Below are positions 16,307-53,790 of a stretch of 64,000 bases of DNA, piece after piece. Source of the stretch: Craspedostauros australis (lineage: Eukaryota > Bacillariophyta > Bacillariophyceae > Mastogloiales > Achnanthaceae); NCBI GenBank assembly GCA_026770025.1, contig JAMXDE010000044.1:496001-560000 (forward strand), given 5' to 3'. The translations under genes and the position numbers were made by a program. Positions within the stretch are counted from its first letter, which is position 1. Each line of letters starts with the position of its first letter. Below the pieces are notes generated by a model that was not told where the DNA came from, ran no database searches, and saw nothing but the letters and a program-made list of their open reading frames with translations.

Positions 16307-17845
16307 TCATCACAAAGTATCTCTAAAGGCAAGCGATTGACTTATGATCAGAATTACATTCGTTAGAATGATGGATGTGACTGTGAGTGGGCAAGGAGCT
16401 TGGAATATCAGCAGCATCGAACCTCAGCCAGAGTCACTATTGGCACTTTCGTTGCAACCACATCGTTGGGTTGTTGTGATATGCAAGCATTTATTCAGTT
16501 GTTCGGACCAGCCGTGGGCAGCTGGTGAGCAGACAAGTGAGGAAAAAGCCATGCACCTTACCAATTTCACTTTGGTCAAGCTTGATGCAACTGAAGTGCA
16601 CCTTTGCCATATCCAGAGGAGTTCCAACACTTGTGCCCTCATCACTGTGTCTAAGATGCTCTGAATGATCACTTCATGAAGCTTGTGAATGCCACGATGG
16701 CATCTGACTCAACACGTGTGGGTGGCTCTTGATCTGGATTTGGTGCGCAATTGGGATCAAGCTGAGCAATAAGAGAGAACAAGGGATGGCATGCAAGCAG
16801 GAGAGCGACCAAGGTGATGTCATGTGACACCAATTGAAGTTTGTCACTCATGTGATCAAGTATGTGCTGACAGCGAAACCATGCTTACCTGGCTCTACTC
16901 CTCCATTGTCTTGGATTGTTGCTGTTGGAGTGTGCAAGGCTTGCTTTGGTCCAACCAATTGGTTGGATTTGTAAATATTCTGGTGCTCAAAGCAATGCAT
17001 TTTGTGTGCAATGCATTGGTACCATATGATGAATCGGTGCCAAGCTGTTGTTTCTTGCATCTCAGGACCAATTCGCCTCAGGGTGCATGTCTTGAGCAAT
17101 GCTCCAGCTTGACAACTTGGCCAAAGGCATCATTGGATAAAAGATGTGCGGCATTGGCATCAACACTGAGCCATCGCACACATCTCCAGCATGATGCGTG
17201 ATCCAGTCTCAGCTGTGTCGTCCGTCAGCTTCACGTTTCTGTACAACGCGTGCATCCTCCACTCGAACTTGTTCAGATGGGGGAATTGAAGCACCAGCCA
17301 CCGCGCTCATCATCTTGACGGCATTTGCGGAAGGAGGTGTGCTCAGGCGGATATTGCTATTGTGGTAGTCGGATATCATGGTGTGCGAGGTGTTCTGTGG
17401 GAAGTGCACAACAAGGGAAACGAGCGTGATGGAAAAGCTATCACAGCAACCAAGTCGCTCGCACCAACAGTCACGCCGTTGGATGCACACCCTGTGGTCC
17501 GGCACAGCTTGGCACAAACAGGGCAGGGCTATCGAATGACTCAATGGACTCAAGAAAATCGAGTTCGGTCACATGGATTCCTTCTTTGTGTTTCTTTCGT
17601 GTTGTTTGTGTGTGTGTGTTGTGGTTGATGTCGAGAAAGATCTCGTGCCAAACCAGAGTGCGATCATGGAACAGAGAAACAGAACGTGCGAACAAGACAA
17701 CGACAACCTTGCTATTCCTTGCAACAGTTTGGTCTCATACCATCAGTCAGCATCTTCATCATAAGACCGACTCGTACCGTGAACACATTGAGCAATCATC
17801 CAGCAATTGTTTGTTCTCCCAACAGCTCAACAACCAACGACCAAC
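16307..17845. other. intergenic, no gene recognised
   Basis: About 1.5 kb between the decayed and intact ankyrin-BTB copies. Open frames are short and show no known domain. A CAAC-rich leader precedes the ATG at 17846. Confidence 0.5.
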
Positions 17846-23749: not shown

Positions 23750-25544
23750 CTGTTTCCATTCCAGTTTCATTTTGATTGCATCGTAGAACAGAGAATGTGC
23801 CCCAGCGGATACATTCAGAGTTGCATGGAAGAGAGAGGAAGAGAGGGTGGATTGCGTCAACGTGAGTGAATGGCAAGTAGGAGCTGATGGTAGTGCCATG
23901 TGCGATCAGCCTGTGGGTCCACATGTATGAGTACGAATGCACACGGGTGCGATCAAGAGGCAGGGGAACAAATGAAAATACTGGTTCGCAGACAGGAAGG
24001 TAGACGTCAAGTCGTTCATGCAAGGGAGGTTACCACCATCTCCGCAGCCACACAGCTACCACGTTTCATGTGTTGGCACATGCACGCATCCACTTCGGTA
24101 GACGCCAGCACAAGGGCAAGTGCCAGTACAAGTAGTGCACTCACATGCGCCTGCGCATGCGCCTGCGCGAAAGCCAGTCGCTGTGTGGGTCGAAAGGTCG
24201 TGGGAAGGAGGGATCCATGCTGCGTCGACGGCGATCCATACTCGCAACGATCTGCTCTTTGTTGTTGAGTTGAGGCTTGGACAGGTGTGGCTGTGCGATG
24301 TACAAGTATGGGTATTGAGAAGGTAGAGTCCTCTCTCCTCGTATGCATGTATTGTACGGTTTTGTACGAACTATTGTATAATAGATGCTATGCCAGGATG
24401 AATGGTTTTGACTTGGTGACGGGTCCAAATAGAATCAATGTCAGTGGTTTGTGGTGTGCGGATCTGTTGATGTCGATGTCGATGTCGATGTCGATGTCGA
24501 TGTCGATGTCGATGTTGCAACTGTTTGTGTTGTGTTCTGCTGTGGACGTGCGTGTTTGCGATAGGTCTTTGTGTTGGTCATTTCAAGGGTTTGGATTCCG
24601 ATTTGTTCGCATACCTCTAGCTTGACTACGACTAGTGTGTTGTCAACGAAGGATGGTTCGCATTCCTTGTTCTCCACACGCATCACACCCATGTTCCGTC
24701 GTCTTTGGTGGTCCGACCAGTCATGGATACCCTTTTCTCAACATGTTCAGAGGCGAATTCATGAGTAGTAGTACGCACCCCACAAGGACACCAATGCGGC
24801 GGTGGCACTGCAGCGTGGCGAACCTGCGTTGATACGAGCTACGCTTGATACAGATGGACAGCCCCTCCATCATGGTTGCGACTGCCTCGTTGTACTCGTA
24901 CATCCGTGGGTCGTTTGTACTTGTCTGTTCCATACTTTCGCTCTTGCTCCAGGACCGCTCTCTGGCAACAGCACGGATGCGCCGTGCTTCGTCGGCCTGG
25001 CCCACCCGACCGATGATCGTTTCATTCATCACACCTGCAGGAGATGCGCTGACAGGAGACACACAGCCGAGGCATTGCCATCTCTCATCATGCATCGCAA
25101 CACCACTCAACCATCCAATCATACTTCTGCAGACCACCCGAGGCACCATAGCTTGTACACAGAGCGCTGTGATCGAGGAGACAGCGGGACGACTTGAGAT
25201 ATGTTGATGGAGATATAAGATACATATGACCATACATGTACGAGTAGCCATCCTGGGTATTGGAGTACATATGCCAGGCAGCTTTCTGATGCATTGGTGC
25301 ATTGATGAAATTTGTTTGTCATTTGTCCGATGCATTGCCAACCTTGTGATCGTTGTTGCGCTTGCTGTCACCACAATGGATGTATTGTTGATCGTGCATG
25401 CATACGCTCTTGCTTTGCATTCTCATTGTTCTTTCCATGTACGATCTCGATTAGTCACAGGGCGGCACGACGAGCCGTCGGCACTGTCATCACGATTGCC
25501 ATTGCTGTTGCTCCAGTGTCACTTCCATCATCGCATACTATGGA
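23750..25544. other. intergenic, with possible 5' exon and a hexamer repeat
   Basis: The first 150 bases are partly conserved with the upstream flank of the 36.5-kb ankyrin paralogue and may hold the missing first exon. A minus-strand frame of 217 codons at 24721-25374 has no recognised domain, and I do not call it a gene. Confidence 0.45.
24469..24515. repeat. GATGTC hexamer microsatellite
   Basis: About 7.5 copies of GATGTC in an unbroken run. It lies in intergenic sequence; the Ser/Met and Thr/Ser runs in open frames across it are by-products. Confidence 0.92.
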
Positions 25545-25548
25545 CTAG

Positions 25549-25564
25549 TGCCTCAAACAAACGG
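25549..25564 (+). repeat. left terminal inverted repeat of the piggyBac-like element
   Basis: Reads TGCCTCAAACAAACGG and is the exact complement of the right end. It is preceded by CTAG and followed 15 bases later by two TTGGCGATT words. Confidence 0.93.
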
Positions 25565-26062
25565 CTGTAGCCAACACCATTGGCGATTTTTGGCGATTTT
25601 TGGATCACGAAAAATGGTCTGTAGAATCTAGTACATTTTCTACGTAAGTCCCGAACAAAAACAGGCCAGAAACAGCATCAACCGCTGTCCAACTCTCCGC
25701 ACTCAGCTCGTATGGGCCATCCTGTACTCGTCTTGCCATTGTAGCATCATATAGCGTTTATATATACCATACTGAAGTTTGGTGGCTGTTTCTCTCTTTC
25801 TCGGTGAGCACTGGTGTGATCCGTCAAGCACCCTTGTCATTCACGAATGCGTTCAGGCATTCGAGACGTGTTTGGGCACCCCAGACACGTTTGGACTCGT
25901 CACACACATCATCTCCGCTTCCCCTCCTCACAATTTCGTTCACGATGAATTGCCAACACCTTGGCAAGCGACGACAGCACAGTCACATTAATCCATTCAT
26001 TCTCTCTTCAGATGCATGTGAAACATGTACAATTAGAGTGTATTTATGGATTCGTATGCGCT

Positions 26063-28678
26063 TCAGTCGCCGTTTGTGGCATGTGTGCGAAAGCACGTGC
26101 GGGCGTCACCTTGTTTGGAAACTTCGGGGCAGCACCACACGAGCGTCCCGGGTGCAGTTGATGGACAATGTTCGCAGATGAAGACAACCAGCTTGTTGCA
26201 GACGATACATCTTCCTCGAGCAGATCTCTGTCCTCGCCTCAAACGCCCTTTGCTGTCCTTGTACACATTTGGCAGCTGTTTCTGCGCTTTTGCAAGGCGA
26301 TGGTTGCCGATTTGGTATGGTGACTGCTGCTGTTGCTGTTTTGTTTGGCTTGTGTTGTTGGTACCGTTTTTACTGTTGCTGGTGTTGTTGGCAGTGGCGC
26401 TGTTGCTTGGCTCGTTGGATTCCATTGTCCCTCCCACCACGTTGTCACTGGTGTGCCCGTGTGCCAGAATGGATCTGGTTTCCAGACATCTTGGTGTGTC
26501 ATGCTCGTCATTGAAGATCATGTCCTCCGCGAGCATGTTGATAAAGGTTCGCAGGGTAAGCTGCTTGTGCCTGTGGCGAGAACCGAGATGATACGTGTAC
26601 GCCTTCATTGCATCCACGACAGTGAGGGCGAACAAAGTCGTAACCAGGCGAAAAAATCCGTCCTTTGTCACCCAGATCCTCTCGAGTCCCAACACATCTT
26701 GGCGAACATGATTGTGCGTGTCCACAGCATTGGACGCACCAAAATACTTACTGGCCACCTCAGGTCTTGGAACTTCCTTCGTTTGATGCCTGCGTTCGTC
26801 ATCGATCCATTTCGCGATGTAGGGTGTGGATGCCCCCAAATGACCTGATCCGGAGGAGAACACAAATGGAATCACGGACGTGCGCGAGTACTTGTATCCC
26901 ATGGCATATATTTCGGTTGTTGTATCACTGCAATTGACATCCCCATCATCGCGGTTGCGTTTCAATAGTAGCTGTGTTCCTGAGGGCCAATTGCTCATCT
27001 TTTCTTGGAGAAACGCGAGGGGGAAGCCAGCGGACGAAGTCTTGATGATGCCGATGAATCCTGAATTTGCCTTCACAGCGATCTCCGAGCACGTCTGCAC
27101 AGATGCGAACCATGAATCTCCCAAGAAGATGCTGTTGGGGAGGGCAAAGTCTGACGTGTCAATGTGGATGTTGTTTTGTCCCATGTTATGCGTTGCCAGA
27201 GCCATACGCAGAGAACAGGCAACAGTTGCTTTCCCGCAATCTCTCACGTGATCGGCCTGGTCCATCTCTTGCTTTCCGCGTTGAATCTCTAAATGGAGCA
27301 TGATACCCGTTTCACTATCGGCAACGGTTTTGAACTCCACCCCAAGCGGTTCCGGCTTGCGTGGAATGTGCGTCAGATGTGGAAGGTTTCCGGTGGGCGA
27401 CAGACGAGGCTTATACGCGGTCATGCTTTCGTCCATGACTTTAACCTGGCCTGGAATGATAGTGTTGCGGCGGCATTTGTTGAACAACTCCACCCCAGGT
27501 TGGATTTGCCACCATTTATCCTCATTTTGTCTGCCAGGGTCGGAGAACAAGTACGGGATAAAGTGTTTGCGAATGTGTTGGAAGCGATGGGAAGGCATGT
27601 GTGTGGTGACATTCCTTGCCTTGCAGAACCCTTCGCTCATCCTGTCACCCCAGAGCTTTGTGGTCGAATCCAGCTTCCCCACAAGCATGATTCCAAAGAA
27701 CACCCACAGTTCACGCTCAGACACAGGGTGATTGTTTCGCCTGCTTCCGACATCAATGGTGCCTGAGATGATACGCCTGTTGAGAGCATCGATTTGTTGC
27801 TTCCAATCTCCTGGCCATAGATGTTGCACCAGTCCCAGGAGGTTGATGCGGTCACGATTGGTGTCATCTTGCGAGCGTTTCTTGCTGAAGTCGAAACCTG
27901 CAACGCCAAACTTGGCTTGAGGCTCTTCATTGCGCTGTTGAATCGATTTGTCTTCAACCACTGTCCATGACACCGCATTCTTCTGCTTGCCGACTGTGAC
28001 CGTTGAATTCATCAATTGATTCTTCTCCTCCATGTGCAAGTATCCTGCAGACTCTTCTTCACGGAGCATGACATAGTCAAATTCTTCGCCAGTGAGCAAA
28101 TCGCCTGTGCTCGAGTCATACGTTGCTTGGGGGTTATCTGTTGCATCATTGGAGACATCCCTGTCTGCGCCATGGCTGGTTGATGCGCTGTTGGGAGTGG
28201 ATGAGACATTTGTACGGTGCGAATAAGATGTGTCACTGGACATGGATGTGTTGCGGCAGAGGTTGTGGTACCGCGACGTCTTGTAGTGTTTGTCTAGTTC
28301 AGCAGATCCCCTCCCAACGCTCTGCGCATGGATGAGCTCCTCAACACAACTGCTGTCCAATTCGACTCGCGTCTTGTCAAGCAGAGTCAGCTTGGTCCCT
28401 GCATGTTCACACACTGCGTTGATGGAACGCCAGTGCACAACCCAGTGATTCTTGGGGAGAGACTTGAGGACGACACCATAAAGGACGCTTCGGACCTTGC
28501 CCTTGCTGTTTCCAGAGGTCACAAGAGGTCCACAGGGACTCGATACGTGGCTTCCAGGGCGGATCTTCATGGTGCGATGTTCAGTGGAGAGTAGATAGAG
28601 AGGAGGGCGATGTCGGTTGGGGCAGAGAAAAGCTGGTGCTGCACCTGTTGTTGCTGTTGCATCTGTTGCTGTTGCCAT
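26063..28678 (-). CDS. piggyBac-type transposase (DDE_Tnp_1_7)
   Basis: An 871-residue protein in one uninterrupted frame. The region about 270-720 matches the piggyBac transposase fold. ELWVFFGIMLVGKLDSTTKL is the N-terminal helical part. VKVMDESMTAYKPR supplies the first catalytic Asp, FLGDSWFASVQTC the second, and SNAVDTHNHVRQDV corresponds to the GVDxxD box with the third. The C-terminus ends in a Cys/His cluster (CIVCNKLVVFICEHC, then WCCPEV, then CFRTH) like the zinc-binding tail that reads the transposon ends in piggyBac proteins. A Gln-rich run lies before it. The N-terminal 250 residues are Ser/Thr-rich and not recognised. The start at 28678 is the first ATG of the frame. It lies on the strand opposite its nearest gene neighbours. 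Confidence 0.92.
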   Translation of the reverse strand: MATATDATATTGAAPAFLCPNRHRPPLYLLSTEHRTMKIRPGSHVSSPCGPLVTSGNSKGKVRSVLYGVVLKSLPKNHWVVHWRSINAVCEHAGTKLTLLDKTRVELDSSCVEELIHAQSVGRGSAELDKHYKTSRYHNLCRNTSMSSDTSYSHRTNVSSTPNSASTSHGADRDVSNDATDNPQATYDSSTGDLLTGEEFDYVMLREEESAGYLHMEEKNQLMNSTVTVGKQKNAVSWTVVEDKSIQQRNEEPQAKFGVAGFDFSKKRSQDDTNRDRINLLGLVQHLWPGDWKQQIDALNRRIISGTIDVGSRRNNHPVSERELWVFFGIMLVGKLDSTTKLWGDRMSEGFCKARNVTTHMPSHRFQHIRKHFIPYLFSDPGRQNEDKWWQIQPGVELFNKCRRNTIIPGQVKVMDESMTAYKPRLSPTGNLPHLTHIPRKPEPLGVEFKTVADSETGIMLHLEIQRGKQEMDQADHVRDCGKATVACSLRMALATHNMGQNNIHIDTSDFALPNSIFLGDSWFASVQTCSEIAVKANSGFIGIIKTSSAGFPLAFLQEKMSNWPSGTQLLLKRNRDDGDVNCSDTTTEIYAMGYKYSRTSVIPFVFSSGSGHLGASTPYIAKWIDDERRHQTKEVPRPEVASKYFGASNAVDTHNHVRQDVLGLERIWVTKDGFFRLVTTLFALTVVDAMKAYTYHLGSRHRHKQLTLRTFINMLAEDMIFNDEHDTPRCLETRSILAHGHTSDNVVGGTMESNEPSNSATANNTSNSKNGTNNTSQTKQQQQQSPYQIGNHRLAKAQKQLPNVYKDSKGRLRRGQRSARGRCIVCNKLVVFICEHCPSTAPGTLVWCCPEVSKQGDARTCFRTHATNGD

Positions 28679-29287
28679 GGTCGCAGGCGTGTTGCTACGT
28701 CCTCCTCATGACGTCATGATGACGCGAATAACGGAAATTGATTTTCAGACATGCTTCCGAGAGTGGATCCGAGTGGTCAAAAAGCACTCCGATTGTCATG
28801 GGAGCACTAAACGCGAGCATACCAACACACCATTGCAATACAACAATGTATAGATCATATAGTTGTGACCGCCTCGGAGAGGGTATTCTAAAATGATATC
28901 TATTGTACAGATTGAGCCAAAGAAGGCTCAGCGCGGAGACTTCAAAGATGGAGGGTCGAATTTCTCGAAAAAAGAGGCCAGATCCTACCGGACCCCTGTA
29001 GAATCCTACTTGTAGCCAATTGTAGCCAATGAAAACCCGGTCCGTCCTTCGTCCGAAGGCAAAACCACACCAAGGGGGTCAACAAACACAAAAAGATCGA
29101 CGAGATAGTGGTAACAACATTATAATGTTATCACTTTCCTGGATAGCCCTGGCTCTTAAGTTTACGTAGATGTGAAGCGATGTTGGATTGAGTGTCTATA
29201 AAACGAAGGCGGAGTTTGGGAAAAACTGATCCAAAATCTGTAGCCAACTGTAGCCAATAATCGCCAATAATCGCCAATTTTTGGGGT
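28679..29287. other. transposon 5' flank (promoter side of transposase)
   Basis: About 600 bases between the transposase ATG and the right terminal repeat. It holds several GTAGCCAA words (near 29014, 29024, 29240 and 29250) and an A/T-rich ACATTATAATGTTA palindrome near 29116-29130. They are probably part of the transposon ends or its promoter; no second gene is seen. Confidence 0.55.
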
Positions 29288-29303
29288 CCGTTTGTTTGAG
29301 GCA
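29288..29303 (-). repeat. right terminal inverted repeat of the piggyBac-like element
   Basis: Complement of TGCCTCAAACAAACGG, followed by CTAG at 29304-29307. Confidence 0.93.
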
Positions 29304-29307
29304 CTAG

Positions 29308-34730: not shown

Positions 34731-36491
34731 GGTCCTTGTGACCCTTCGGCCATAGTTCGATTGTTTCGACTCTCTTCGGAACGGCAGGCAGTGGAGACAG
34801 ATGGAAAAGAAGTGGCCGCTAACTGTAATCAATCATCGATAGATTTCTCTATTGCAACATCACACAACTGTACGCGTATCATACACAGCTATTCTACTGT
34901 TGTTCAAGTGCCATCTCGTTTCATCAGAGTACGCAAAACCACACACACAAGCGGCATGGCTGGCGTGGCGGTTGCTGCGGTTTGAATGGAGCGGATGCGT
35001 CGGCGGACTGCGCCTGATGATGCGATGGTGCAGTACCCGATGTCAACTTCTCGTTGGAGCATTCCCTTGCAACTGCTGAGGCTCACCCCGTTGTCTATTG
35101 GGCGTGAATGTTGATCATCGGACGCATGTCGTAACATCGAAGCAAGCGCTCTATCACATCGACTTGGCTGAAGCAAAAGCATGATACAGCACCGTTTTGT
35201 CAGCGTCGTCTCGGATGTTGATGCATGCCTATGCCAAATGCACGAGTATTGTGAGTCTCACTGAATCGAAAGATGTGCTTGACGACATGCGTATGGCCAA
35301 ACCTAGCGTGTCTCCTTCCACGGTTGCCCAGTAGTATTACTGCTGTTTCTGCTGTTTCTGTCCTTGTTGCGTATGGGGCAAAGTGCGCACGGCAATGGTG
35401 GAGAATGGGACATTGTGGGCATCCCATACGAACACCAATAGCAACCCAGTTCCATCCAAATCATCTTCCAAGTAAACGAACCATTGAACGAACGAAGCCG
35501 TGCATCATCAACTCACGAGCATACCCGTACTCTTACTCGTACGGCGTAGCGATTTTGCATCATGCGACGAAGATGTTGCAGTGTCGAGGGGATGGCCAAA
35601 GGTCAGCGCAGATTTCTGGTTGTCACTGAAGTCCACAACAAACGAAGATAGACAAATGAGAACCCGATCTTTCAAACACGAACAAACACAAGTGCGAACA
35701 AGCCAACGTGTGCGACCAAGAGGGTGTCGAGAAAGATGAGAATGCTCAACGAAACAGTGCTTCATTAGCTTTGATGCGCCAGCACAACAGCAACAACAAC
35801 GACACCAGCAGCAGTAGGTAGATCACGCTGCTCGTCGCGCTTCGTGCCCGTCCCAGTATGGTACCGTGCTGCCAAGAATCCACATTGATTCGAGGGAAGT
35901 TGAAATGCGCTACTCTCCCTTCCCCTCTCACAACAAATCGCAGCACCACACCAGCTTCATCCACAACAGCGCTGCGCACACACCCCTTCCTCTCCGTCTT
36001 CCTCACACTCGGAGCAGCGCATTTCGAGAACAGGCTGTCGTGCGCTCCTACCCTTCAGCGACCGACCTGTCCATTCGAGGTTCAGCAAAAGCACTGGTAC
36101 AAGCATGAGCTCCGCCAACGATCGATCATCCAGGTGAGTTGATTGCTTGTGTCCACATGTGCTCTGATGCTTGTGTCTGCTTGCGCTTGCGCTTGCGCCT
36201 GCCTGGGTATGCGAATGCTGTCCAGTTCCACCTTCGAGTTTGCGCTCGTTTCCTTTGCTCGCCTCCGTCGTACTTGAGTATCATCGTGCATCTGCGTGTG
36301 CTTGTGTGTGATGTGACACAGCGACGTACACCCATGATCGTAGCTTGTCGACAACATCAGTCTTCTATTAGAGTTACACTCACATTCGTGCTTCTTGTCT
36401 TCTCATCCATCGAATCCGGATTGTATCTGTTGGGACAAATGTTATGCCGGAAATGAAATGCGCATGGAACCCGAATATAAAATGGAAACAG
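34731..36491. other. intergenic, possible first exon of the ankyrin gene at its right end
   Basis: About 1.8 kb. The last 100 bases resemble the upstream flank of the inverted ankyrin paralogue at 23.7-23.85 kb (shared GGAAACAGTGATGA and nearby words). Nothing else is recognised. Confidence 0.45.
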
Positions 36492-38016
36492 TGATGAGGC
36501 AAAGAAAAAATGGCTTTTGCAGTTGTGCAGAGCATGCGATCAGAACAACCTCACACAGGTTCAGGCTATCGTCAATTCATGCGAGGAGGGCACGTTTTGC
36601 GGCATTGTAATGCTTCGGCGGTTGAGTACATCGCCACTCCACGTTGCTTGCGCTCATGGATACACAGCAATTGTGACGTACTTGTTGGAGTCTGATCGAA
36701 TCAAGGTGGACGTCAACCTCCGAGATGACAGCGGACGGACAGCACTCCATCGTGCTTGTCATCATGGAAAAACGAACATCGTGAAGTACCTGATGGAATT
36801 GGCTCGCGCCCACGTGGATATCAACATTCGAGACAACCACAGCAACACTCCAATGCAAAGTGCGTGCTATCATGGACACAAAGATATCGTCGAATACTTC
36901 ATGCGGTCTGATCGAAACAACGTGGATATCAACCCCCGAAACACCAAAGGTGAGACGCCTCCGCATTGGGCGTGTCGGAGGGTGAGCAGCGATCTTCGAT
37001 ATCAGATGGAATCGAATGATGTCGGCGCTGCCATAAATTCCAACGTCCGCAACAACAACGGTGACACACTTCTCCACCTGGCTTGTCGCATGATCTGCTC
37101 TGATGCTGAGGATATGATTGCGTATCTGGTCCAGTGTGACGAAATCGACACAGACAGTCATATCCGTACCCAAAACAACGATGGCGACACACCATTTCAT
37201 CTTCTTTGCTCTCACAGGCACCGTGGAATGCTATCTTCGTTGAAGTTGTTGATCGAAGTCGGTCTACCCAACAATAACAATAACAATAACAATAACGGCG
37301 ACAACAGCAACAAAGACAACATGAATATCGATGAAATCCTCAAGATTCAAAACAGTGACGGCAACACACCTCTCCATGTTGCATGCAAGCATCGGGAAGA
37401 AGATGTCATCGAATACCTGCTCCGGTCACTCAAGACCAACAGCAGTCTCATCATCCAAAACCGCGATGGTGATACACCCTTCCATATTGCCTTCAAGAGA
37501 GGCTTGTTCGTTGTGCTCAATGACACCACCGGACTCACCAGACTCACCCGCCTCTTCGATTTCATCCAATATCAAATCATTCCCACCGCCAACCTTACCG
37601 ATCTCTCACAAGCAGACAACTCCATGGGAAGTCCGGTCATCATCAAGCGATTGATAGAAGAGGCTCAACCAATTGCAAACATCCAGAATCATGAGGGCAA
37701 CACACTTCTTCATCTTGCATGTGCGAGTTGGAAGAGCAGTACAATCGTTCTTCGAGTTTTGGTGGGGTGTGACTCGGTAGATGCAACGCTTGTGAATAGC
37801 GATGGCGACACAGCTCTGCACTGCATTCCCAGTACCGACTCCGACTACTACAAATACCGCCTGCGAAAGATGAAGATCTTGATTCAATTGAGCGATGTAA
37901 AGGTGGACGTGAACACGAGGAACAATTATCGAGAAACAGTGCTGCACTGTGCGGTGGAAAAGAATTGCTTGGGGCTGGTCGAGTATCTGATGACGTTGGA
38001 TGATATCGATATCCAT
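36492..38016 (+). pseudogene. ankyrin-repeat gene, 5' part, interrupted by an insertion
   Basis: Paralogue of the inverted gene at 21.9-23.7 kb: many repeats align (ESDRIKVDVNL, RNNNGDTLLHLAC, GDTALHC, KVDVN, EYLMTLDDIDIH). About 12 ankyrin repeats can be counted, two fewer than the paralogue in the region after residue 150. The frame opens after ACAG at 36488-36491 with no ATG, so a 5' exon is missing here as in the paralogue. The match stops after DDIDIH at 38016. The frame then runs only seven codons into the inserted element before a stop. The expected 3' part, ARNKAGNTALECAREKG, lies at 40.1 kb. A poly-Asn run (AACAATAAC units near 37270-37300) is inside one repeat loop. The coding is otherwise unbroken. 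Confidence 0.83.
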
Positions 38017-38250
38017 AGTGATTTTTCCCCACGATAGAGGACCCCCCTTGCGTCAGGACGCAAAATTTTACTAGCGGTGTGCGTGAACTGTTGCGTCCTG
38101 ACGCAAACGAAAAATAACGCGACGATTTGTCGCGACGTTTAATCGTGATAGACTCGTCCGACTAAATGGCAAACAAGACCCTCCCCACATCGCGTGTTTC
38201 TTCGTGTTGTTTTGGGTTCTCATGCCACCACCCGATTCTTCGTGTTGTTT
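38017..38250 (+). repeat. left long inverted repeat of the Mutator-like element
   Basis: Patchy complement of the right end. It contains two copies of the palindrome TTGCGTC-NN-GACGCAA (38048-38063 and 38091-38106), then CGTGATAGACTCGTCCGA and TTCTTCGTGTTGTTTT. Confidence 0.68.
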
Positions 38251-42006: not shown

Positions 42007-43766
42007 ATGGTCTTCATCCTCCCCCCACTCGCTGTGCTGTTCGCCTCACCAATGCGCAACCACAACCATCAAGTCCGGACATCACTATCCACGGCCTCAC
42101 CGTCTCTCCTTCCATTCAAGTCGACCCCTGGTGATTCGTCCCCTTCAACCGTCACCGACCAGGATCTCCTGCGCGCCGCAGAACGAGGAGATGTGGACAT
42201 CCTCACTGCGTGGAAGATGGAATTTGCACAAACCTCCATCGACACGATCAAGGATCATCGTGACAAGACTTCGCTCACCTCGCATGCTCCAGCGGTCAGC
42301 CTGAAATGATCAAACAGTTGATGGAGTCATGCGGAGCAAACATCAATGCCCAATCCATGGATGGAGAGACTGCGCTACACTATGCATGCGCACAGGGCAA
42401 CGTCGAGGTTGTGGAATACCTGGCCGGGTCGCATGCTGCAGATGTCAACCTCCAGGATAACTCCGGCAAGGCGGCACTCCACGACGCATGCACCGAGGGG
42501 CATGTGGCCATCGTGAAGACTCTGATCGAGTCATATTCTGCAAGCGCTCTCGTGCAAGATGAGAAAGGTGAGAATGCCCTCCATGCCGCGTGTCTTCATG
42601 GGCGTTTGGATGTTGTGGAGTACCTCGTTGGATCACATGGAGTGGAAATCAATGTGCAAGATGAATTCGGCAATACTGCGATCCACAATACATGTCTGAA
42701 GGGTCATCTTGATATCTTGAAGTATGTGATGGAGACTCGTGCTGTGGCCATCGACATCCAAAACGATGACGGCGATACCGCGCTTCATGTTGCTTACAGA
42801 AATGGCCATTTGGATGTTGCAGAGTACCTGGTGAAGTCGTGCAAGGCAGATGTTCATGTTGAGAATGATGCTGGCGGCACGGCTCTCCAGTCTGCATATT
42901 CCAAACGTCATCTGGATGTTGTGAGATGGTTGGTGGAGTCAGGTCAGGTGGACATCAATGCTAAAGACGAGAATGGCGATACTTTGCTTCACTGCGCAAG
43001 TGCTGGAGGTCATCTGAATTTGGTGAAGCATTTGTTGGAATCAAGCGAAGCCAACATCAATGCTAAGAATCGTGAGTGCGAGACTCCACTCTACAAGGCA
43101 TATTGCCACAGCCACTTCGATGTTGTCGAGTATCTCATCGGAACACCAAGCATACATCCCAACTCCCGACACGAGGATGGCAACACCGTGCTCCATCTTG
43201 CAAGTGGCGATGGCCATCTCGATGTTGTGAAGTGGCTGGTTGAATCCGGTAAGGCCAACATCAACGCCGAGAACGACAACCGTAAGACTCCGCTCTACGA
43301 GGCATATCACACCAATCACTTCGACATTGTCAAGTATCTGGTTGCAGCACCCAATGTTGATTTGAACGTGAAAGACAGGAATAGCGAGACCATCCTCCAT
43401 CGCGCCAGCGCTGATGGCCATTTCGACGTTGTGAAGTCGTTGGTTGAACAAGGCAAGGTCGATATCAACATCAAAACCAGCAATTATGGCAGCACTGCAT
43501 TGCACCTTGCAAGCATGCATGGCAGATTGGAAGTCGTGAAGTATTTGGTGGAATTGTGCAACGCAGAAATCGACATTCAAAACAAGTATGGCATCACAGC
43601 ACTTGGGTGGGCAAGTTGGCGTGGTAAAGTGGAGGTCGTGACGTATTTGGTGGAATCGTGCAACGTAGACATCAGCATCAAGACTAACAGTGGCTTGACT
43701 GCGCTGGGCATTGCGAAACTGCTGGGTCAGACTGATATTGCCAACTACTTGACCACTCTTGTTTGA
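42007..43766 (+). CDS. ankyrin-repeat protein, about 15 repeats, one frame break
   Basis: The frame from ATG at 42007 gives an N-terminus with a mildly hydrophobic start (MVFILPPLAVLFASP) and a repeat-like helix (TDQDLLRAAERGDVDILTAW) before it closes at 42309. The repeats continue in another frame from about 42276 (HLACSSGQPEMIKQLMES) through 14 clear units (GETALHYACAQGN, GKAALHDACTEGH and so on, to GLTALGIAKLLGQ) and stop at 43766. The two parts share one repeat broken at TCGCT-CACCTC near 42275, as if one base is missing. The change could be a true lesion or a sequencing error. If real, translation could still begin at the ATG at 42306. This gene is more divergent from the other ankyrin genes than they are from each other. 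Its partner is unknown. Confidence 0.75.
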
Positions 43767-44195: not shown

Positions 44196-44748
44196 TTACT
44201 TCTGCACACCCATCTCCTCGTCACTCTCGGCGGCACTGTCGTTCTCCTCCTGATGCAGCTTGTTCATGGCAGCAGTCTCCATTCGGAGGGCAGACTCGAA
44301 GACGGCGGCATCCTCCTCGTTGCTACACGAGTTGATCTCCTCGCGGAGTCCCTTGATGTTGGACAGGATGCGCTCGCGTTGGGAAGAGAAGGATTCTGGC
44401 TGGGCGGCCAAGGCCTTCTGCATCTCGAGGTTCTCGCGTGGGACGGTGGTGGAACCGGCACCGTTCACAAGCACGTTGGTTCCAAGGTCGAGGTTGCGGT
44501 TGCTCTGGTGGTCTGGTTTCATGCCGGCGGCGCGCTCCTCTGGGGTGCCGATGTACACCTCATCGAGCTGGAAGCCAGAGACGGCCTTGTGGACGGAGGC
44601 AAGGACCCAGGCTCCGGAGCAGATACCAGTGGCTTCCAACAACAGACAGAACTGGAGGAAGATGTAGACGATTGGGTTGGAGAGGAAGGCGATGGGGAAG
44701 ACGGATGCGACCAGCTGCCATGTGATGGAGGCGATGATGGTGGTGATG
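44196..44748 (-). pseudogene. SIT: silicon transporter (SIT), 3' part
   Basis: 183 codons in one frame ending at TAA (44198-44196). It begins TTIIASITWQLVASVFPIAF, inside the transporter's ninth or tenth membrane segment. It then passes LSNPIVYIFLQFCLLLEATG and GAWVLASVHKAV (last membrane segment). The end is a long hydrophilic C-terminus with a coiled coil (SQRERILSNIKGLREEINSC and ESALRMETAAMNKLHQEE). Diatom SITs are known to end in such a cytosolic coiled coil. The missing N-terminal two thirds lies at 52690-53790 beyond the retrotransposon, and the text fits across the target duplication. On its own this part has no start. Confidence 0.9.
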
Positions 44749-45543
44749 TGTCGAGATGTACATGTGAGTATATGTCGAGATGTACGAGTATATGTGCATC
44801 GTTCACCCGCTATTCTCTCATACACACTTGGACGGTATAACTACATTCGTGTCGATAGTATACTGTGATTCGTCAGAATCACAGGGGAAATGGAACACAC
44901 GAAAAGGGGCAAGATTTCTGGAGGAAATTTGCAAATGACGATTTCTGAGAGAATTGGAAGATCGTCCGTCCATCCATCAATGGTACCAAGAGAATCTCGA
45001 GGTACTTCCCAACTAAACCTCAGATGACGATATCATCTGACAGGCTGCTGCATCACCAATGGAACGTGACATCTGGAGAGCAGAAGGACGCCTACTGACG
45101 TCGACAGGATGTCATCATGTCACCACGTCGACATCTGTCTCCAAGTCAGAGCAGAAGGTGAAGATCCGATGACCGAAGGGCATCAGCATCATGGATACGA
45201 AAGGTGAACTTCAAATGGCGAGTACTCATGGAGTAGGAGCCAGTACTGAATGAACGGAGTGTCGAATACGAAGTACGTATTGAACACGGAGTATCGTGTG
45301 CGACGAGTACACGATATTGAGAGAGAGAGAGAATACAGAGAAGAGCGAGAGAGCATCTCGCGTACCGACTCATAGTCGGAGACTGAATCTACGAAACAGA
45401 TTGAAGCGCCGAGAGCATCGGGCAAGAGAACGGGCGTACACCGAGAGCATCGGAGTAGCCAAGTAATGAAATAGCAAACGAACGACTATCAACCAACACC
45501 ATCTTCCACGATCGTAGGTTACCGTGCGCGGAACTTGCCAACA
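44749..45543 (+). repeat. 5' LTR of the copia element
   Basis: 795 bases, TGTCGAG to CCAACA. The first 45 bases hold a doubled TGTCGAGATGTAC word. It is identical to the 3' LTR as far as I could compare. Open frames inside it are not genes. Confidence 0.95.
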
Positions 45544-45625
45544 CGTTTATAAACGATAGATCAGGGCGAGCCCGCGAATCGTATCGTGCGAGGAAGACGA
45601 ACATCATTCAAGAGCAGCAGACTGA

Positions 45626-48600
45626 ATGAGCGAGGAAGAGGAATTGAGAGACATCCCTCTGTCCAACCCGACTATCAAGCAAGAAGAAGGTGCGAGTGAG
45701 ACTCCACCACGAGAAGAGAAGGAAGTAGCCGCGGCTACTGTCCTATCAGGCGCAGACGCAAGCGCGATCGACGAGACCGAAGAGGAACGGTCTGCAAGGC
45801 TACACCGCGAGAAGGAGAGTATCCTCAAGGCGTACAAGCAAGAGGAGACTGGTGTGACGAAGAGCATTCGCACAGCCAAACGAAGTGGTAAAAGTGAGAC
45901 ACCACCAGGAGGAGAATTTGTGACGAAAACAATCTCCGCGCAACAACAGGCGAAAATCGAAAAAGTGACAACACAGAAACAGACGGAAATCAAGGGCGCG
46001 AGCGCACCAACAACGAAACAACGAATCAACATGGCGACATCAGCCAACGTGAACAAGCGACGCATCAAGGCGCCGATGTTCAGCGGTGAACAGGAAGACT
46101 ACAGCGCATGGGAGTCCCAAGCGAAGGCATACGCTCGTGCACAGAAGACGAGAGACGTGATGTTGGGCAAGACCAAGGTGCCAACAGTGAGCGAGATCGC
46201 GGCAGCCGCCGGTGAAGCCAAGGAAGCGATGGAAGAGATCTACGAGCTGGGATGCGACTGCTTCAGCGATCTGATCCTCATGATGGATGCAGAGAAAGGA
46301 AAAGGCAAGCAAGCCATCCAGTACATCAACCAGTGCATCTCCGACGACTACCCCGAAGGAGACGCACACGCAGCGTGGAACGTTCTCGCGGAGAAGTTCC
46401 GACCATCCGACGCGGTGACGAAGATCAAACTCAAGCGCCAATTCAACAACGAAAAGATGAAGAGAGACACGGACCCCGACATCTACATCACGCAACTCGA
46501 GAGTCTACGATCGCGTCTCCACGATGTCAAGTACGAAATCACGGACGAGGAAATGATCATGCAAATCCTCAGCACGGTGAGCAACGAGTACAGAACCCAC
46601 ATCGTGAACTTCCAACATCAACTCACGTTCAATCCAGAACTGGTTACCATCAACACGATCAGAGGAGTACTCCGTACTGCATACGCCACTCACAGAGGAG
46701 GCAAGGCATACGTCGACGACTTCCAAGACAGTAACACGAAGAGCAACGACACCGGCTTCACAAGCACCGGTAACTTCAAGGGTACTTGTCACAACTGTGG
46801 CGTGTATGGCCATAGATCCGCCGATTGTCCAGAACGCAAGAAATCGAACAACAAGAAAAACAACAACAACAACAACAAAATGAACGGAAAGCGTAACAAG
46901 GGAAGCGGCTTCAAGGGCAAGTGCAACTACTGCGGCATCTTCGGACATCGCGAGGCGGAGTGCCGAAAGAAGAAGTTCAACGAAAGCAAAAAGAACAACG
47001 AACAAGCCAACGCGGCTACGGAAGGACACGACAAGAGCGGGCACGAGATGGTACTCTCTGCGAAGGACATGCCGCTCTGCATGTTGGTGTCCGACGACTA
47101 CATCGAAGACTCCTTCTTCGATAACTTCGAGTGCGTCGGAAGTGACGACGAAGTACAGGACGATGAGATCGTCCCGGAGTGGCTCAGCGAGGAGCCAATC
47201 ATCCACGAGGTGGATCCAAGACGCGAGGTGAGCTACGAATGCTGCTTCAACGCGCACGACCTGATCGGTTCATACGGCGACGAAGCTGAGATGGACGACG
47301 AGGCCAACGATAGCGACATCGAAGAGGCCATGAGTGATGACGACGACGACGCCGACGAGAACGGCGCAGATGAAGACGACGAGGCGAATCGCGACGAAAT
47401 GCCTCCTCCCCAAATTGGGAGATACGAGAGAACGGGAACCTTCATCAACCAAGGCCAAGGCGAAACGAACCGCGCAGCGGCGCCACCTCCTCCAGCGGCA
47501 GGGAACAACAGATCGGGCATCTTCGACGAGGATGACAGCGACGAATCCGAGGACGGCAATCATCCAGACGACAGCTTCAATCCAAACGAGCGTGTCATCT
47601 ATCCAGCGAATATCGACTTCCCACCAATCGAAGATCCCAACAGATCCAATTACCTCCATCGTCATGACACCGTCCCATATGCAACAGAGACAGCATTGGT
47701 GATCCAGAAGCAACTCATCTTCGATGCAGTGATGGAAGCAGGAGTGAAACTGTTCTCAGGAATCGAACGAGGAGTACTCAGACCGATATGGGTGAACATG
47801 ATGGGATCCATCCTATCCGAGAACTTCAGATCAATTGAAGAGATTCTCGTCAACGCGGTCGTCATCAACCGCATACTCGAAGCGAACGAGACAGAGACGA
47901 TCCCAGAGACGGATCTACACTACATCCTTGGAGGATGCATGCGCGTACTCTTACGCGAACGACCACGCGTCAACCCCTACGATCCAGCCACAGGATCACA
48001 TCGCAACAGCACGATTCCATCAGACTACGCACAACTACCCGACAACATGGATGACGAGGAACATCACAACCCATACAACGAAGATGGAATTCATGAAAAC
48101 GATGATGACGGCAGCTTCGACGACGAAATAGCTGCGGCAGCCGTGGAGCAGCTCCACAAGCTGAGCACCAAGCACAAGGACAAGGTCAACAAGGACACCT
48201 GGCTCGCCGACAGTGGAGCTTCGTGTCACATCGTCAATTCAGACGCCGCTCTCTTCAACGTGCGGCACATCAAGTCATTCGTCCAAGTGGGAGACAGCAC
48301 GAAGCTGGACTCTCCCAAAATGGGATCCATTCGCTTGAAGGTCAAGCAACGAGACAACACTGGCCACGTCATCCGGCTTGATGATGTGAAGTACACACCG
48401 AAAATGGCGGTGAACCTTTTCTCCACGAACAAGGCTCTGTACAACGGTTACCAGCTTGGTAGCAACGGCATTCTGATGGACATCATCAACGGATCCGGAA
48501 CGAAGATCGTATTCGACCGAGTCTTCCCCACGGCCAACGGATTCATCACGGGAGTGCAGATGCATCCCATCATGCCAACGAACGACGACAAGGCTTGCAC

Positions 48601-51600
48601 AGCCCTCGTCAAGAACCCATCCAAGGAGATCAGCGCGGTGAGCTTGCATCGAATGCTCGGCCACGCGCCACTCGAGGCCATGAAGCGAACGGCAGCTCAA
48701 TACGGATGGAAGATTATCGGCGAGATGCCGGTATGTCGCGACTGCGCGGTCGCGAACGCAAGAGTGAAGAACATTCCGAAGGCAACCATTCCGAGAGCGA
48801 CTCGCCGCGGCGAACGGCTCTTCATTGACATTAGTTACACTAAACACATAAGCTTCGGAGATAAACGCTACTGGACCCTGATCGTGGACGACTGCACGGA
48901 TCACTGCTGGAGTTTCTTTCTCAAGAACAAAAGTGATCAACCAGGATACATCAAACGATTCGTCCAGACGATCAAGTCACAGACTGGTGACCAACAGATC
49001 ATCTTCCGAGGTGACAACAGCGGAGAGAACAAATCCACGCAGGATATTCTCATCGATGCAGGACTCAACGTGAAATTCGAATTCACGGCATCGAACACAC
49101 CGCAACAGAACGGTAGAGTAGAACGCAAGTTCGCGTACCTCTACACCAAGATCCGCTCCATGCTCAACGGAGCACAGCTCGACGAAGAGTATAGGCATGG
49201 CCTGTGGGCAGCAGCTGCTAGCACTGCCACCGCCATCGCCAACATCACCGTAGCGAAGAATCAAAAGGAGTCACCACATCGACAATTCTTCGGCAATGAT
49301 CCACCGTACGCGGATGCACTCCGCACTTTCGGAGAAGTGGGTGTTGTGAAGACTACCTACGGCGGGATCACCGCTAAACTCAAGAATAGAGGAGAAGAGA
49401 TGGTGTTCATCGGATATGCACACCAACACGCATCAGGGGTCTACAACATGTACAGACCATCGACCAAGTCACTCGTCTGCTCACGCGACATCAAGTGGCT
49501 CAATCAATCATACGGACAGTTCCGTGGCTGGGCACCAGCACCGAACGTATCCAATGAAACAGGAACGACGGACGCAGACGGCTTCACGACCATCGGACGG
49601 AAGGGAGCAACGCCAAGGACGGCAACGCGTCAAACATCGGAAGCGAAGAGAGTATCTTTCGCTGACAGCAACAGATACTATATCCTATCGGACAGTGACG
49701 ATGAGGACAATGAGGACGATGGAGTAGTAACTCAACTAATCCATAACGACAAGGAAGATCGGAGCGAATCCAATCATGAGGATGACGAGATCACACCATC
49801 CGGCGACGAAGCCGACAATGACACAGGCGTCACTCCTCCGAACACACCAGCGAGGTCTACACATGGTACACCGTCCAGACCTCCGCCGAGTAAACCAAGC
49901 AAACGTGACATAGACAGAAAGGAGAGGATCCGACGTCACGAAGCACGAGGCAGGAAGGGAGAAGCTAATCCCAATTCAACTACAGGGAAGAGCATTCCCA
50001 GAGCTCTGCGTGAGCTCGCAGACTACAACGAACGAGGTCGAAAGGAAGAAGGATATGAAAGCGATTCATCATCCAACCAAGACAGCGACGAACTCAGCGA
50101 CGAGGAGAACGACGACTCCAACAACGAAACTACAGATGACGAAGAAATTGCAGATGAAGGAGAGATTGAGATCACTCATTATAGCACAACAGGACTGTAC
50201 GGAATGAATGCAATCATTACCGAATCACCAGCGATCGACATCGGACTGTCGATGCAGGACGAGAACAAAGAACCAGAGAAGCACATCGAACCTACAACAT
50301 TCGATGGAGCCTTCAATCACCCAGACCCTATCCATCGAAAGGGATATCGAGCAGCCATTAAGAAGGAGTTCGACTCCATGGACACACGCAAAGTATACAG
50401 CAAGATCAAACGAGACGCCATTCCACGCGGCCGCAGATGCTGCAAATGCAAATGGGTCTTCAAGCTGAAGCGTGACGGCACGCATCGAGCACGGCTCGTT
50501 GCATGTGGCTATTCACAAGTCGCAGGAGTGGATTTCCAAGAGCACTACTCACCCGTCATTCACGACGTGACCTATCGAGTCATGATGGTGATCATGCTGA
50601 TCAAGAAGATGGACTGCGCACTCGTCGATGTCGTAACGGCATTCCTACACGGAGACCTCGACGAGGAGATCTACATGAACTGTCCCAACGGGATGGATCA
50701 TCAACCAGACGAAGCCCTGACCCTACACAAGCCAATCTACGGACTTGTGCAGAGCGCCAGGCAATGGTTCAAGATGTTGGTATCGACCCTCAAGAATATC
50801 AACTTCGAACAGAGCGCGGCAGACCCGTGCCTGTTCTACAGGAAGACGAACGAAGGAAGCATGATCGTGGCCATCTACGTGGACGATTGCTTCTGCTGCG
50901 GAGACTCCAAGGCACTGGAGACATTCCTGAAGGACATCCAAGGCAGCAAATTCAAGGTGACAATCGAGCGTGGACTCGGAGACTACCTTAGCTGCAACAT
51001 CGAACTGAACCATGACAAGACTAGAGCGACATTGCGTCAACCACACCTCATCCGACATCTCATCGAAGAGTTCGGAACCAAGGTTGAGAAGATGCAACGT
51101 TATGGGACACCGGGAACCCCGGGTCAAATCATCGTACGACCATCCGAAGATAACGGACTGCAGAAGGTCGGAGCGGAAGAACATGCCGAGTACCGCCGAG
51201 GCGTCGGCATGCTACTCTTCCTCATCAAGCACTCGCGACCAGATATCGCGAACCCTGTGAGGGAACTCTCCAAGGTATTGATCGGGCCCACCAAGGCCGC
51301 AATGAAGGAGATGTATCGGATCATCAAGTATGTGATCGATACAAAGGACTATGGATTGAAGATCCATCCAGCGCGTCCAGACGACGACGGCTGGGACATG
51401 GAGCTCTTCTGCGATAGCGAATATGCAGGAGACAAGAACACGAGAATCAGCGTAGGGGGATTCATCCTATACCTGTGCAAGGTGCCAATCCTTTGGCGAT
51501 CCAAGGCACAGAAGGCCGTCACACTCAGTTCATCCGAAGCAGAATACGTTGCCCTTTCCGAAGCGGCAAAGGAGATCTTCTTCGTCGTGCAGCTACTCGA

Positions 51601-51874
51601 AAGTGTGGGCGTCCCAGTGAAGACGCCGATCAAGGTCCGTGTGGACAACATCGGAGCGATCTTCATCGCCAAGAACCCATCAACATCCCAACGATCGCGG
51701 CACATCGACGTGCGCCATCACTACGTGAGGAACATGGTAATCAACAAAACCATCGAAATCATTTTCGTCAAATCCGAGCAAAACACAAGCGACGGATTCA
51801 CCAAGAACATCAAGGCCGACTTACAACGTGAACACGAGAAGTCGTACCTTGACACATCGAGAACATTCGAATGA
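45626..51874 (+). CDS. copia gag-pol polyprotein
   Basis: 2082 codons. The capsid-like gag part is at about 130-370, followed by two CCHC zinc knuckles at about 387-400 (CHNCGVYGHRSADC) and 432-445 (CNYCGIFGHREAEC). A long acidic region (480-840) has no clear domain. The aspartic protease is at about 858 on (ADSGASCHIV). The integrase follows, with its His/Cys end (LHRMLGHAPL, then CRDCAVANA) and the Asp-Asp-Glu core (IVDDCTDHCW, then PQQNGRVERKF). Reverse transcriptase is at about 1580-1830, with YVDD near 1750. RNase H is at about 1920-2050 (CDSEYAGDKNTRIS, then LSSSEAEYVALSEA). In this family the single polyprotein is cut by its own protease. The frame is uninterrupted. Confidence 0.97.
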   Translation: MSEEEELRDIPLSNPTIKQEEGASETPPREEKEVAAATVLSGADASAIDETEEERSARLHREKESILKAYKQEETGVTKSIRTAKRSGKSETPPGGEFVTKTISAQQQAKIEKVTTQKQTEIKGASAPTTKQRINMATSANVNKRRIKAPMFSGEQEDYSAWESQAKAYARAQKTRDVMLGKTKVPTVSEIAAAAGEAKEAMEEIYELGCDCFSDLILMMDAEKGKGKQAIQYINQCISDDYPEGDAHAAWNVLAEKFRPSDAVTKIKLKRQFNNEKMKRDTDPDIYITQLESLRSRLHDVKYEITDEEMIMQILSTVSNEYRTHIVNFQHQLTFNPELVTINTIRGVLRTAYATHRGGKAYVDDFQDSNTKSNDTGFTSTGNFKGTCHNCGVYGHRSADCPERKKSNNKKNNNNNNKMNGKRNKGSGFKGKCNYCGIFGHREAECRKKKFNESKKNNEQANAATEGHDKSGHEMVLSAKDMPLCMLVSDDYIEDSFFDNFECVGSDDEVQDDEIVPEWLSEEPIIHEVDPRREVSYECCFNAHDLIGSYGDEAEMDDEANDSDIEEAMSDDDDDADENGADEDDEANRDEMPPPQIGRYERTGTFINQGQGETNRAAAPPPPAAGNNRSGIFDEDDSDESEDGNHPDDSFNPNERVIYPANIDFPPIEDPNRSNYLHRHDTVPYATETALVIQKQLIFDAVMEAGVKLFSGIERGVLRPIWVNMMGSILSENFRSIEEILVNAVVINRILEANETETIPETDLHYILGGCMRVLLRERPRVNPYDPATGSHRNSTIPSDYAQLPDNMDDEEHHNPYNEDGIHENDDDGSFDDEIAAAAVEQLHKLSTKHKDKVNKDTWLADSGASCHIVNSDAALFNVRHIKSFVQVGDSTKLDSPKMGSIRLKVKQRDNTGHVIRLDDVKYTPKMAVNLFSTNKALYNGYQLGSNGILMDIINGSGTKIVFDRVFPTANGFITGVQMHPIMPTNDDKACTALVKNPSKEISAVSLHRMLGHAPLEAMKRTAAQYGWKIIGEMPVCRDCAVANARVKNIPKATIPRATRRGERLFIDISYTKHISFGDKRYWTLIVDDCTDHCWSFFLKNKSDQPGYIKRFVQTIKSQTGDQQIIFRGDNSGENKSTQDILIDAGLNVKFEFTASNTPQQNGRVERKFAYLYTKIRSMLNGAQLDEEYRHGLWAAAASTATAIANITVAKNQKESPHRQFFGNDPPYADALRTFGEVGVVKTTYGGITAKLKNRGEEMVFIGYAHQHASGVYNMYRPSTKSLVCSRDIKWLNQSYGQFRGWAPAPNVSNETGTTDADGFTTIGRKGATPRTATRQTSEAKRVSFADSNRYYILSDSDDEDNEDDGVVTQLIHNDKEDRSESNHEDDEITPSGDEADNDTGVTPPNTPARSTHGTPSRPPPSKPSKRDIDRKERIRRHEARGRKGEANPNSTTGKSIPRALRELADYNERGRKEEGYESDSSSNQDSDELSDEENDDSNNETTDDEEIADEGEIEITHYSTTGLYGMNAIITESPAIDIGLSMQDENKEPEKHIEPTTFDGAFNHPDPIHRKGYRAAIKKEFDSMDTRKVYSKIKRDAIPRGRRCCKCKWVFKLKRDGTHRARLVACGYSQVAGVDFQEHYSPVIHDVTYRVMMVIMLIKKMDCALVDVVTAFLHGDLDEEIYMNCPNGMDHQPDEALTLHKPIYGLVQSARQWFKMLVSTLKNINFEQSAADPCLFYRKTNEGSMIVAIYVDDCFCCGDSKALETFLKDIQGSKFKVTIERGLGDYLSCNIELNHDKTRATLRQPHLIRHLIEEFGTKVEKMQRYGTPGTPGQIIVRPSEDNGLQKVGAEEHAEYRRGVGMLLFLIKHSRPDIANPVRELSKVLIGPTKAAMKEMYRIIKYVIDTKDYGLKIHPARPDDDGWDMELFCDSEYAGDKNTRISVGGFILYLCKVPILWRSKAQKAVTLSSSEAEYVALSEAAKEIFFVVQLLESVGVPVKTPIKVRVDNIGAIFIAKNPSTSQRSRHIDVRHHYVRNMVINKTIEIIFVKSEQNTSDGFTKNIKADLQREHEKSYLDTSRTFE

Positions 51875-51894
51875 CCGAATGCACATAGGAAGGG

Positions 51895-52689
51895 TGTCGA
51901 GATGTACATGTGAGTATATGTCGAGATGTACGAGTATATGTGCATCGTTCACCCGCTATTCTCTCATACACACTTGGACGGTATAACTACATTCGTGTCG
52001 ATAGTATACTGTGATTCGTCAGAATCACAGGGGAAATGGAACACACGAAAAGGGGCAAGATTTCTGGAGGAAATTTGCAAATGACGATTTCTGAGAGAAT
52101 TGGAAGATCGTCCGTCCATCCATCAATGGTACCAAGAGAATCTCGAGGTACTTCCCAACTAAACCTCAGATGACGATATCATCTGACAGGCTGCTGCATC
52201 ACCAATGGAACGTGACATCTGGAGAGCAGAAGGACGCCTACTGACGTCGACAGGATGTCATCATGTCACCACGTCGACATCTGTCTCCAAGTCAGAGCAG
52301 AAGGTGAAGATCCGATGACCGAAGGGCATCAGCATCATGGATACGAAAGGTGAACTTCAAATGGCGAGTACTCATGGAGTAGGAGCCAGTACTGAATGAA
52401 CGGAGTGTCGAATACGAAGTACGTATTGAACACGGAGTATCGTGTGCGACGAGTACACGATATTGAGAGAGAGAGAGAATACAGAGAAGAGCGAGAGAGC
52501 ATCTCGCGTACCGACTCATAGTCGGAGACTGAATCTACGAAACAGATTGAAGCGCCGAGAGCATCGGGCAAGAGAACGGGCGTACACCGAGAGCATCGGA
52601 GTAGCCAAGTAATGAAATAGCAAACGAACGACTATCAACCAACACCATCTTCCACGATCGTAGGTTACCGTGCGCGGAACTTGCCAACA
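51895..52689 (+). repeat. 3' LTR of the copia element
   Basis: 795 bases matching the 5' LTR. The purine tract AGGAAGGG (51887-51894) sits immediately before it, and GTGATG follows it. Confidence 0.95.
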
Positions 52690-53790
52690 GTGATGAGGGC
52701 TCCAAGAAGTCCGGTGTTGAAGAATTCCTGGGTGCTGTCGGAGACTCCGAAGATGTTCTCGCCAGTTCCGACCTCGGCATCGAGAGTGGTGACACGGGCG
52801 ATGGTGAAAAAACACATGGTGACGCAGATCTGACGCCCGATCATGAATCCTGGAAGGTTGCGTCCGTCACCGCGGAAGAGGAGCTCGCAGGTCTTGCGGG
52901 CCATTGGGTGGTCTCCACGGTCCTCCTTTGGAAGCTTGGCGACAGCGAAGAAGGCGATCTGCATACCCTCGAGCATACCCACGATGGACATGAAGAGGAA
53001 GAAGAGGATGACGGCGACTCCGTTTGGCACTCCGGCCCACATGGTGGTCTTTCCATCGAAGAGGGCGACGAGGGTGACGGCCATGGCGTAGCACAGGATG
53101 GCGAGGGAGATGAGGATGCGGCCCCAGTAGAAGAGGTTCTGGGCACCGTCGCGTGGTGGCCCCTTCGACTCGATTTCCTTGCCGGAGGCCCAGACGAACA
53201 ACATCTGGACGAGGTAGCACGAGTGCAGAAGTCCGGAGAACTCGATGGCGAGGGCGACGTAGAGGGTGAAGACGGCGAAGAAGTTGTTGATGTAGTCAAG
53301 CATGCACAGGGAGGCATTGACTTGGGAGTTGAGCTGTCCGGCTTGAGCGGTCATGAGGATCATGGCGGCTCCGGATCCGAGGAAGATCTGGATGATGATG
53401 TCTGGGAGTCCGAAGACTTCGGCGTCGGCGAGGGGGGCACCGCACTGGTTGATGGTGAAGACCATGAGGAGGACCATGAACTGACGCCCATGAGGTAGCG
53501 GTCGAGGTTGTCACCCTTGTGGGCGAGGGAGGTGCACTTGTGGCTAGTTGGGTGGGATTCGACGTAGAGGTCGCGGTCGACGGGTGGGAGACCGACGAGG
53601 GAACCCTGTCCTCCCTCAACCATGTTGAGCCAGACGAGGGCCGTGATCATGATGACGACGGCCACCACTGGGTGGACCTCGGATGAGACCTTGGTCTGCT
53701 CATTGAAGATGAGTCCACAGACGATGGTGATCGAGAAGATGAGGAGTCCGGTGGAACACACACCGACTTGATGAGCTGAAGCGGATCCAT
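52690..53790 (-). pseudogene. SIT: silicon transporter (SIT), 5' part
   Basis: SITs carry silicic acid across the plasma membrane for wall building and occur in silicifying algae. ATG at 53790 starts MDPLQLIKSVC. The transporter text then passes STGLLIFSITIVCGLIF, VWLNMVEGGQGSLVG, DNLDRYLMG, RQFMVLLMVFTINQCGAPLA, CMLDY, SIVGMLEGMQIAFF, MIGRQICVTMCFFTIARV and TGLLGALIT. EGGQ, GRQ, EGMQ and GRQI are the four paired SIT motifs, and CMLD is the SIT signature. Beyond 52690 the frame enters the LTR of an inserted element. The frame also shifts twice: in the ACACACAC run near 53757-53763, and at CTGACGCCCA (53481-53490), which splits the first GRQ. Either these are errors in the sequence, or this copy had already decayed. 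With the 3' part, the length is near 550 residues, the usual size. Confidence 0.93.

Follow-up and report, generated by a model that had tools for sequence, protein, structure and literature searches.

The question raised by this locus is whether a diatom silicon transporter (SIT) gene has been broken by a retrotransposon, and what the state of the gene and of the element says about when and how this happened. We analysed a window of 64,000 nucleotides (the whole stretch of DNA under study) from Craspedostauros australis (contig JAMXDE010000044.1, positions 496,001 to 560,000), in which a minus-strand SIT coding sequence, running from an ATG at 53790 to a stop codon at 44196-44198, is interrupted at 44749-52689 by an element of 7,941 bp. 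This element lies on the plus strand, antisense to the SIT, and the first-pass annotation had given correct coordinates for both. Taken together, the results make it very likely that a full-length Ty1/copia-type element, apparently an autonomous one, recently integrated in antisense orientation into a diatom SIT gene and disrupted it. Published comparisons throughout draw on the available excerpts of the cited papers.

The translated stretches of the interrupted gene were compared with Pfam. The N-terminal stretch (53486-53761, minus strand), which carries two hydrophobic segments and the motif EGGQ, was covered by a match to PF03842 (Silic_transp) at 53360-53761 (profile 12-102, E=7.4e-41). 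The middle stretch up to the insertion (52690-53485, minus strand), with GRQ, CMLD, EGMQ and GRQ, was covered by a match at 52665-53477 (profile 106-369, E=2.2e-136), and the C-terminal stretch (44196-44748, minus strand), with the last hydrophobic segments, the tail and the stop codon, by a match at 44196-44747 (profile 368-510, E=1.2e-47). The three stretches together span profile positions 12-510 of 513 near-contiguously, and the profile coordinates meet across the insertion, at 369 before it and 368 after it. The results confirmed that the gene is a broken member of the SIT family, as had been proposed from the letters alone. The possibility that the halves belong to another carrier family was ruled out by the same search, in which each piece matched PF03842 and no other Pfam family at E 0.01.

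SITs are defined by two EGXQ-GRQ motif pairs (PMC5100055), and CMLD is a SIT motif as well (PMC10700740); the window gene shares all of these with the diatom SIT family and matches the family profile along nearly its whole length, whereas it differs in being split by an element and in carrying two extra frame changes. The first-pass annotation had based the assignment on four paired motifs. All four are present, EGGQ in the N-terminal stretch and GRQ, EGMQ and GRQ in the middle stretch, but the first pair straddles a frame change, with EGGQ and the first GRQ in different reading frames. Against the ten transmembrane segments of a SIT, a plain hydropathy scan gave 2 peaks in the N-terminal stretch and, once the middle and C-terminal stretches were joined, a further 13 that overlap in part.

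For comparison, we scanned other sequence collections for SITs. Among genome contigs, 12 pattern stretches were found and 1 was confirmed, on a 3,447-bp contig (JACUUV010000112.1) filed under a Clostridia MAG; viral contigs gave 1 pattern stretch and 0 confirmed, and plasmids gave no match. The MAG contig carries an unbroken SIT frame at 1183-2868 with an 877.4-bit PF03842 match over profile positions 2-506, and is probably a eukaryotic, diatom-type contaminant of the Clostridia bin. The window SIT is identical to it at 54 of 87 aligned residues in the N-terminal stretch, 178 of 263 in the middle stretch and 94 of 176 in the C-terminal stretch. Differences at codon positions 1/2/3 were 24/17/42, 63/46/141 and 66/53/107, respectively, and this third-position excess indicates that the SIT sequence has evolved as protein-coding both before and after the insertion point.

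A C-terminal coiled coil had also been put forward as a mark of SIT identity. One paper reports that none is predicted for SITs (PMC10700740), and in the portions of the literature available it is not a defining feature of the family. The single-sequence fold of the MAG-contig SIT was poor overall (mean pLDDT 44.0; 70 was reached or exceeded by 48 of 557 residues), with blocks above 70 at about residues 491-540 forming two helices, which lends weak support to a helical tail. A solved-structure search gave 0 matches at E up to 1, an Rfam search at gathering scores gave 0 matches, and a tRNA search found 0.

The interrupting element is bounded by two LTRs of 795 bp on the plus strand (5' LTR, 44749-45543; 3' LTR, 51895-52689, TGTCGAG...CCAACA), which are identical at 795 of 795 bases and have TG...CA ends. 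The raw repeat match begins one base earlier (44748/51894), because both LTR copies happen to follow a G. Between the LTRs, a single open plus-strand gag-pol frame of 2,082 codons (45626-51874) gave Pfam matches above cut-off to Retrotran_gag_2, zf-CCHC, Pol_BBD, SH3_retrovirus and RVT_2 in copia order, with RVT_2 at polyprotein positions 1599-1817 (144.2 bits); an rve match at 1059-1151 scored 19.6 bits, under its curated cut-off of 32.6. The polyprotein contains two CCHC knuckles and the strings DSGA, DNSGEN, YVDD and SSSEAEY, of which we take DSGA to be protease-like and the terminal region to be an RNase H-like end. A putative polypurine tract, AGGAAGGG (51887-51894, plus strand), directly precedes the 3' LTR. 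On reading the sequence after 45543, no tRNA primer-binding site was identified; a perfect 12-base palindrome, CGTTTATAAACG (45544-45555), stands directly after the 5' LTR, where such a site is expected.

The LTR pair with TG/CA ends and a target duplication mark the element as an LTR retrotransposon, and the integrase region lies upstream of the reverse transcriptase, as in copia-type elements. The proposed copia identity is thus borne out by a single open frame of 2,082 codons that runs from gag through integrase to reverse transcriptase, and the element would appear to be a full-length and autonomous Ty1/copia-type retrotransposon; the sub-threshold integrase core match and the unsuccessful reading for a primer-binding site count against this. 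A scan of viral contigs for the copia reverse transcriptase gave 1 stretch, 0 confirmed, and no relative. Published diatom LTR elements are 5,182-8,062 bp long; their LTRs span 153-844 bp and are 94-100% identical, and TG/CA ends occur in 23 of 26 families (PMC2806351). The window element falls within the total and LTR length ranges published for the CoDi elements (Maumus et al. 2009, PMC2806351), with which it has TG/CA ends, high LTR identity and copia domain order in common, and its two CCHC knuckles resemble the tandem knuckles reported for CoDi6.2-6.5; unlike the CoDi elements compared, it sits inside a SIT.

The window holds a second putative mobile element and other repeated coding sequences. 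At 25545-29307, perfect inverted ends of 20 bp (CTAGTGCCTCAAACAAACGG) enclose an 880-codon frame for a DDE_Tnp_1_7 transposase (26066-28705, minus strand). TTAA is the usual target duplication of piggyBac-type elements; no TTAA stands beside these ends, and their outer CTAG could be a palindromic target duplication instead. A 510-codon frame at 13301-14830 encodes three tandem CaMKII_AD/SnoaL-like domains, the repeats being about 78-83% identical in DNA. Ankyrin-repeat frames account for five long ones among the ten window frames scanned, and the ankyrin-repeat genes at 21913-23766 and 36481-38034 lie in inverted orientation with about 71-77% DNA identity.

We then consider the junction. Copies of the target site duplication GTGATG stand beside the 5' LTR (44743-44748) and the 3' LTR (52690-52695). 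When the flanks were joined with a single GTGATG, an uninterrupted SIT frame resulted (...NTGLLGALITTIIASITWQ...), parallel to that of the MAG contig (...NMGFLGAIITTILASISWQ...), in which AIITTILASIS corresponds to ALITTIIASIT in the window. The join confirmed the target duplication and the fit of the SIT text across it that had been noted earlier, and its restoring of a continuous frame parallel to that relative argues for a simple integration. The element entered a hydrophobic stretch that follows the second GRQ; provided that the last GXQ motif belongs to segment 8, as published (PMC10700740), this stretch would be membrane segment nine. What remains of the membrane domain is severed, together with the tail. 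Read on into the LTR, the SIT frame adds VGKFRAR and then stops, from which we infer that this copy cannot yield a complete transporter of ten helices.

Integration of LTR elements proceeds by a staggered cut, gap filling and duplication of the target. At this locus, the integrase would have cut the two strands of GTGATG in a staggered way, within the sequence that encodes LLGALIT|TIIAS, and gap filling would have produced the 6-bp duplication; since then, the two LTRs would have stayed without divergence. The loss of the SIT was probably tolerated through transport from other SIT copies or from an uninterrupted allele. With the P. tricornutum mutation rate of 4.77e-10 substitutions per site per generation (PMC6604790), which is borrowed here, zero differences in 2 x 795 LTR sites limit the age of the insertion to at most about 4 million generations (95% bound), and it may be far younger. 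The claim of a recent insertion is therefore upheld by the 795 identical bases.

The element is one of three breaks in the SIT copy as written. Read from the translations, the frame changes at about 53755-53770, between the start codon with the first ten codons (MDPLQLIKSV; 53761-53790, minus strand), which are out of frame with what follows, and the next stretch. It changes again at about 53483-53493, directly before the first GRQ, as seen in the translations and in a codon-usage frame scan. The first-pass annotation overlooked both. The MAG-contig frame is continuous at both places; the window copy has no intact open reading frame, and the two frame changes would suffice to break it even without the element. 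The codon-usage scan, trained on 11 long window frames with the SIT excluded and run with penalties of our own setting and without a control run, gave 26 coding segments and 3 abutting same-strand frame changes, in an ankyrin gene, in the SIT and at 57184/57185; the start-proximal SIT change was absent from its output. The change at 57184/57185 is not regarded as a clear lesion, the PGAP1 and Lipase_3 matches of that gene being weak and below cut-off and its leader being of low complexity.

These frame changes admit two accounts, both compatible with a real insertion. The frame changes may be small assembly indels, with the element as the sole real lesion and an empty, working gene on the other allele, which we rate at slightly short of an even chance. 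The ankyrin-repeat gene near the SIT (42007-43766) likewise changes frame, at about 42270-42280, and a relative at 17792-19357 is continuous there, both sides being matched in one frame (17813-17980, E=9.5e-7; 17981-18265, E=5.1e-18); heterozygous copia insertions are, moreover, documented in P. tricornutum (PMC2806351). Against this, the 6.2-kb copia frame and the other long frames are unbroken, although long frames are unbroken by selection. The ankyrin frame change could be a small sequence error or a real mutation, and the upstream piece of that gene had no Pfam match.

Alternatively, decay may have come first, so that the element landed in a pseudogene that had acquired both frame changes and no longer had a function, which is possible but rather unlikely. 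Such a history would suit a family in which duplication and loss are frequent: across 37 Thalassiosirales with 1-6 SITs each, 62 duplications and 72 losses are estimated (PMC10700740). The N-terminal and middle stretches also score below the MAG contig against PF03842 (137 vs 163 and 455 vs 487 bits), whereas the C-terminal stretch outscores it (163 vs 156 bits). Outside the frame changes, 0 stop codons occur in the 539 codons examined (92 + 447), which speaks against decay, but weakly, because under neutral decay two indels would precede any nonsense change with a probability of about 0.22 (borrowed P. tricornutum rates). The similar frame change in the neighbouring ankyrin gene suggests sequence error instead, and we lean towards small sequence errors rather than decay for the SIT frame changes.

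Long identical LTRs are typical sites of assembly errors, and their identity could in principle come from repeat collapse in assembly; that contigs were falsely linked through the copia repeat is nevertheless highly improbable, since a false join is not expected to give a target duplication at the exact LTR ends and both gene halves in frame. The junction has the structure that a true integration leaves behind, and an assembly join would hardly account for it.

A recent copia integration into a SIT can be set against what is published on SIT copies and on retrotransposon insertions in diatoms. The number of SIT copies varies from one diatom species to another, and copies are often lost (PMC10700740). 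Cyclotella cryptica has six SITs, one of them a partial sequence (PMC5124317), Nitzschia putrida has expanded SITs that are partly in tandem (PMC9054022), and in P. tricornutum one SIT copy is suggested to be a pseudogene (PMC2758714). Blackbeard and Surcouf of P. tricornutum are diatom retrotransposon insertions like the window element, both held heterozygous, and Blackbeard shows a short target duplication, as here, together with an empty allele (PMC2806351); unlike these, the window element has SIT coding sequence as its target. The suggestion that the interrupted gene is a non-essential extra copy and the suggestion that it is one of two alleles are both plausible, fitting published biology. 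A search for a retrotransposon inside a SIT met none in the titles, abstract openings and excerpts covered, from a literature whose subscription part was thinly represented, and the available portions of papers on SIT knock-outs (including PMC11910954) offered no usable evidence as to the dispensability of a SIT.

On this evidence, we consider it rather probable that the locus represents a present-day knock-out of a SIT copy by a copia element that can still move, the knock-out being fixed in the course of SIT birth-and-death evolution or else segregating as a null allele. The mechanism is routine, being ordinary mutation in what is usually a multi-copy gene family, and the notable part is the SIT as the target. 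The young insertion offers a concrete example of the loss of a SIT copy and a natural null copy. If this reading is true, retrotransposition would be a direct route to SIT gene loss in diatoms.
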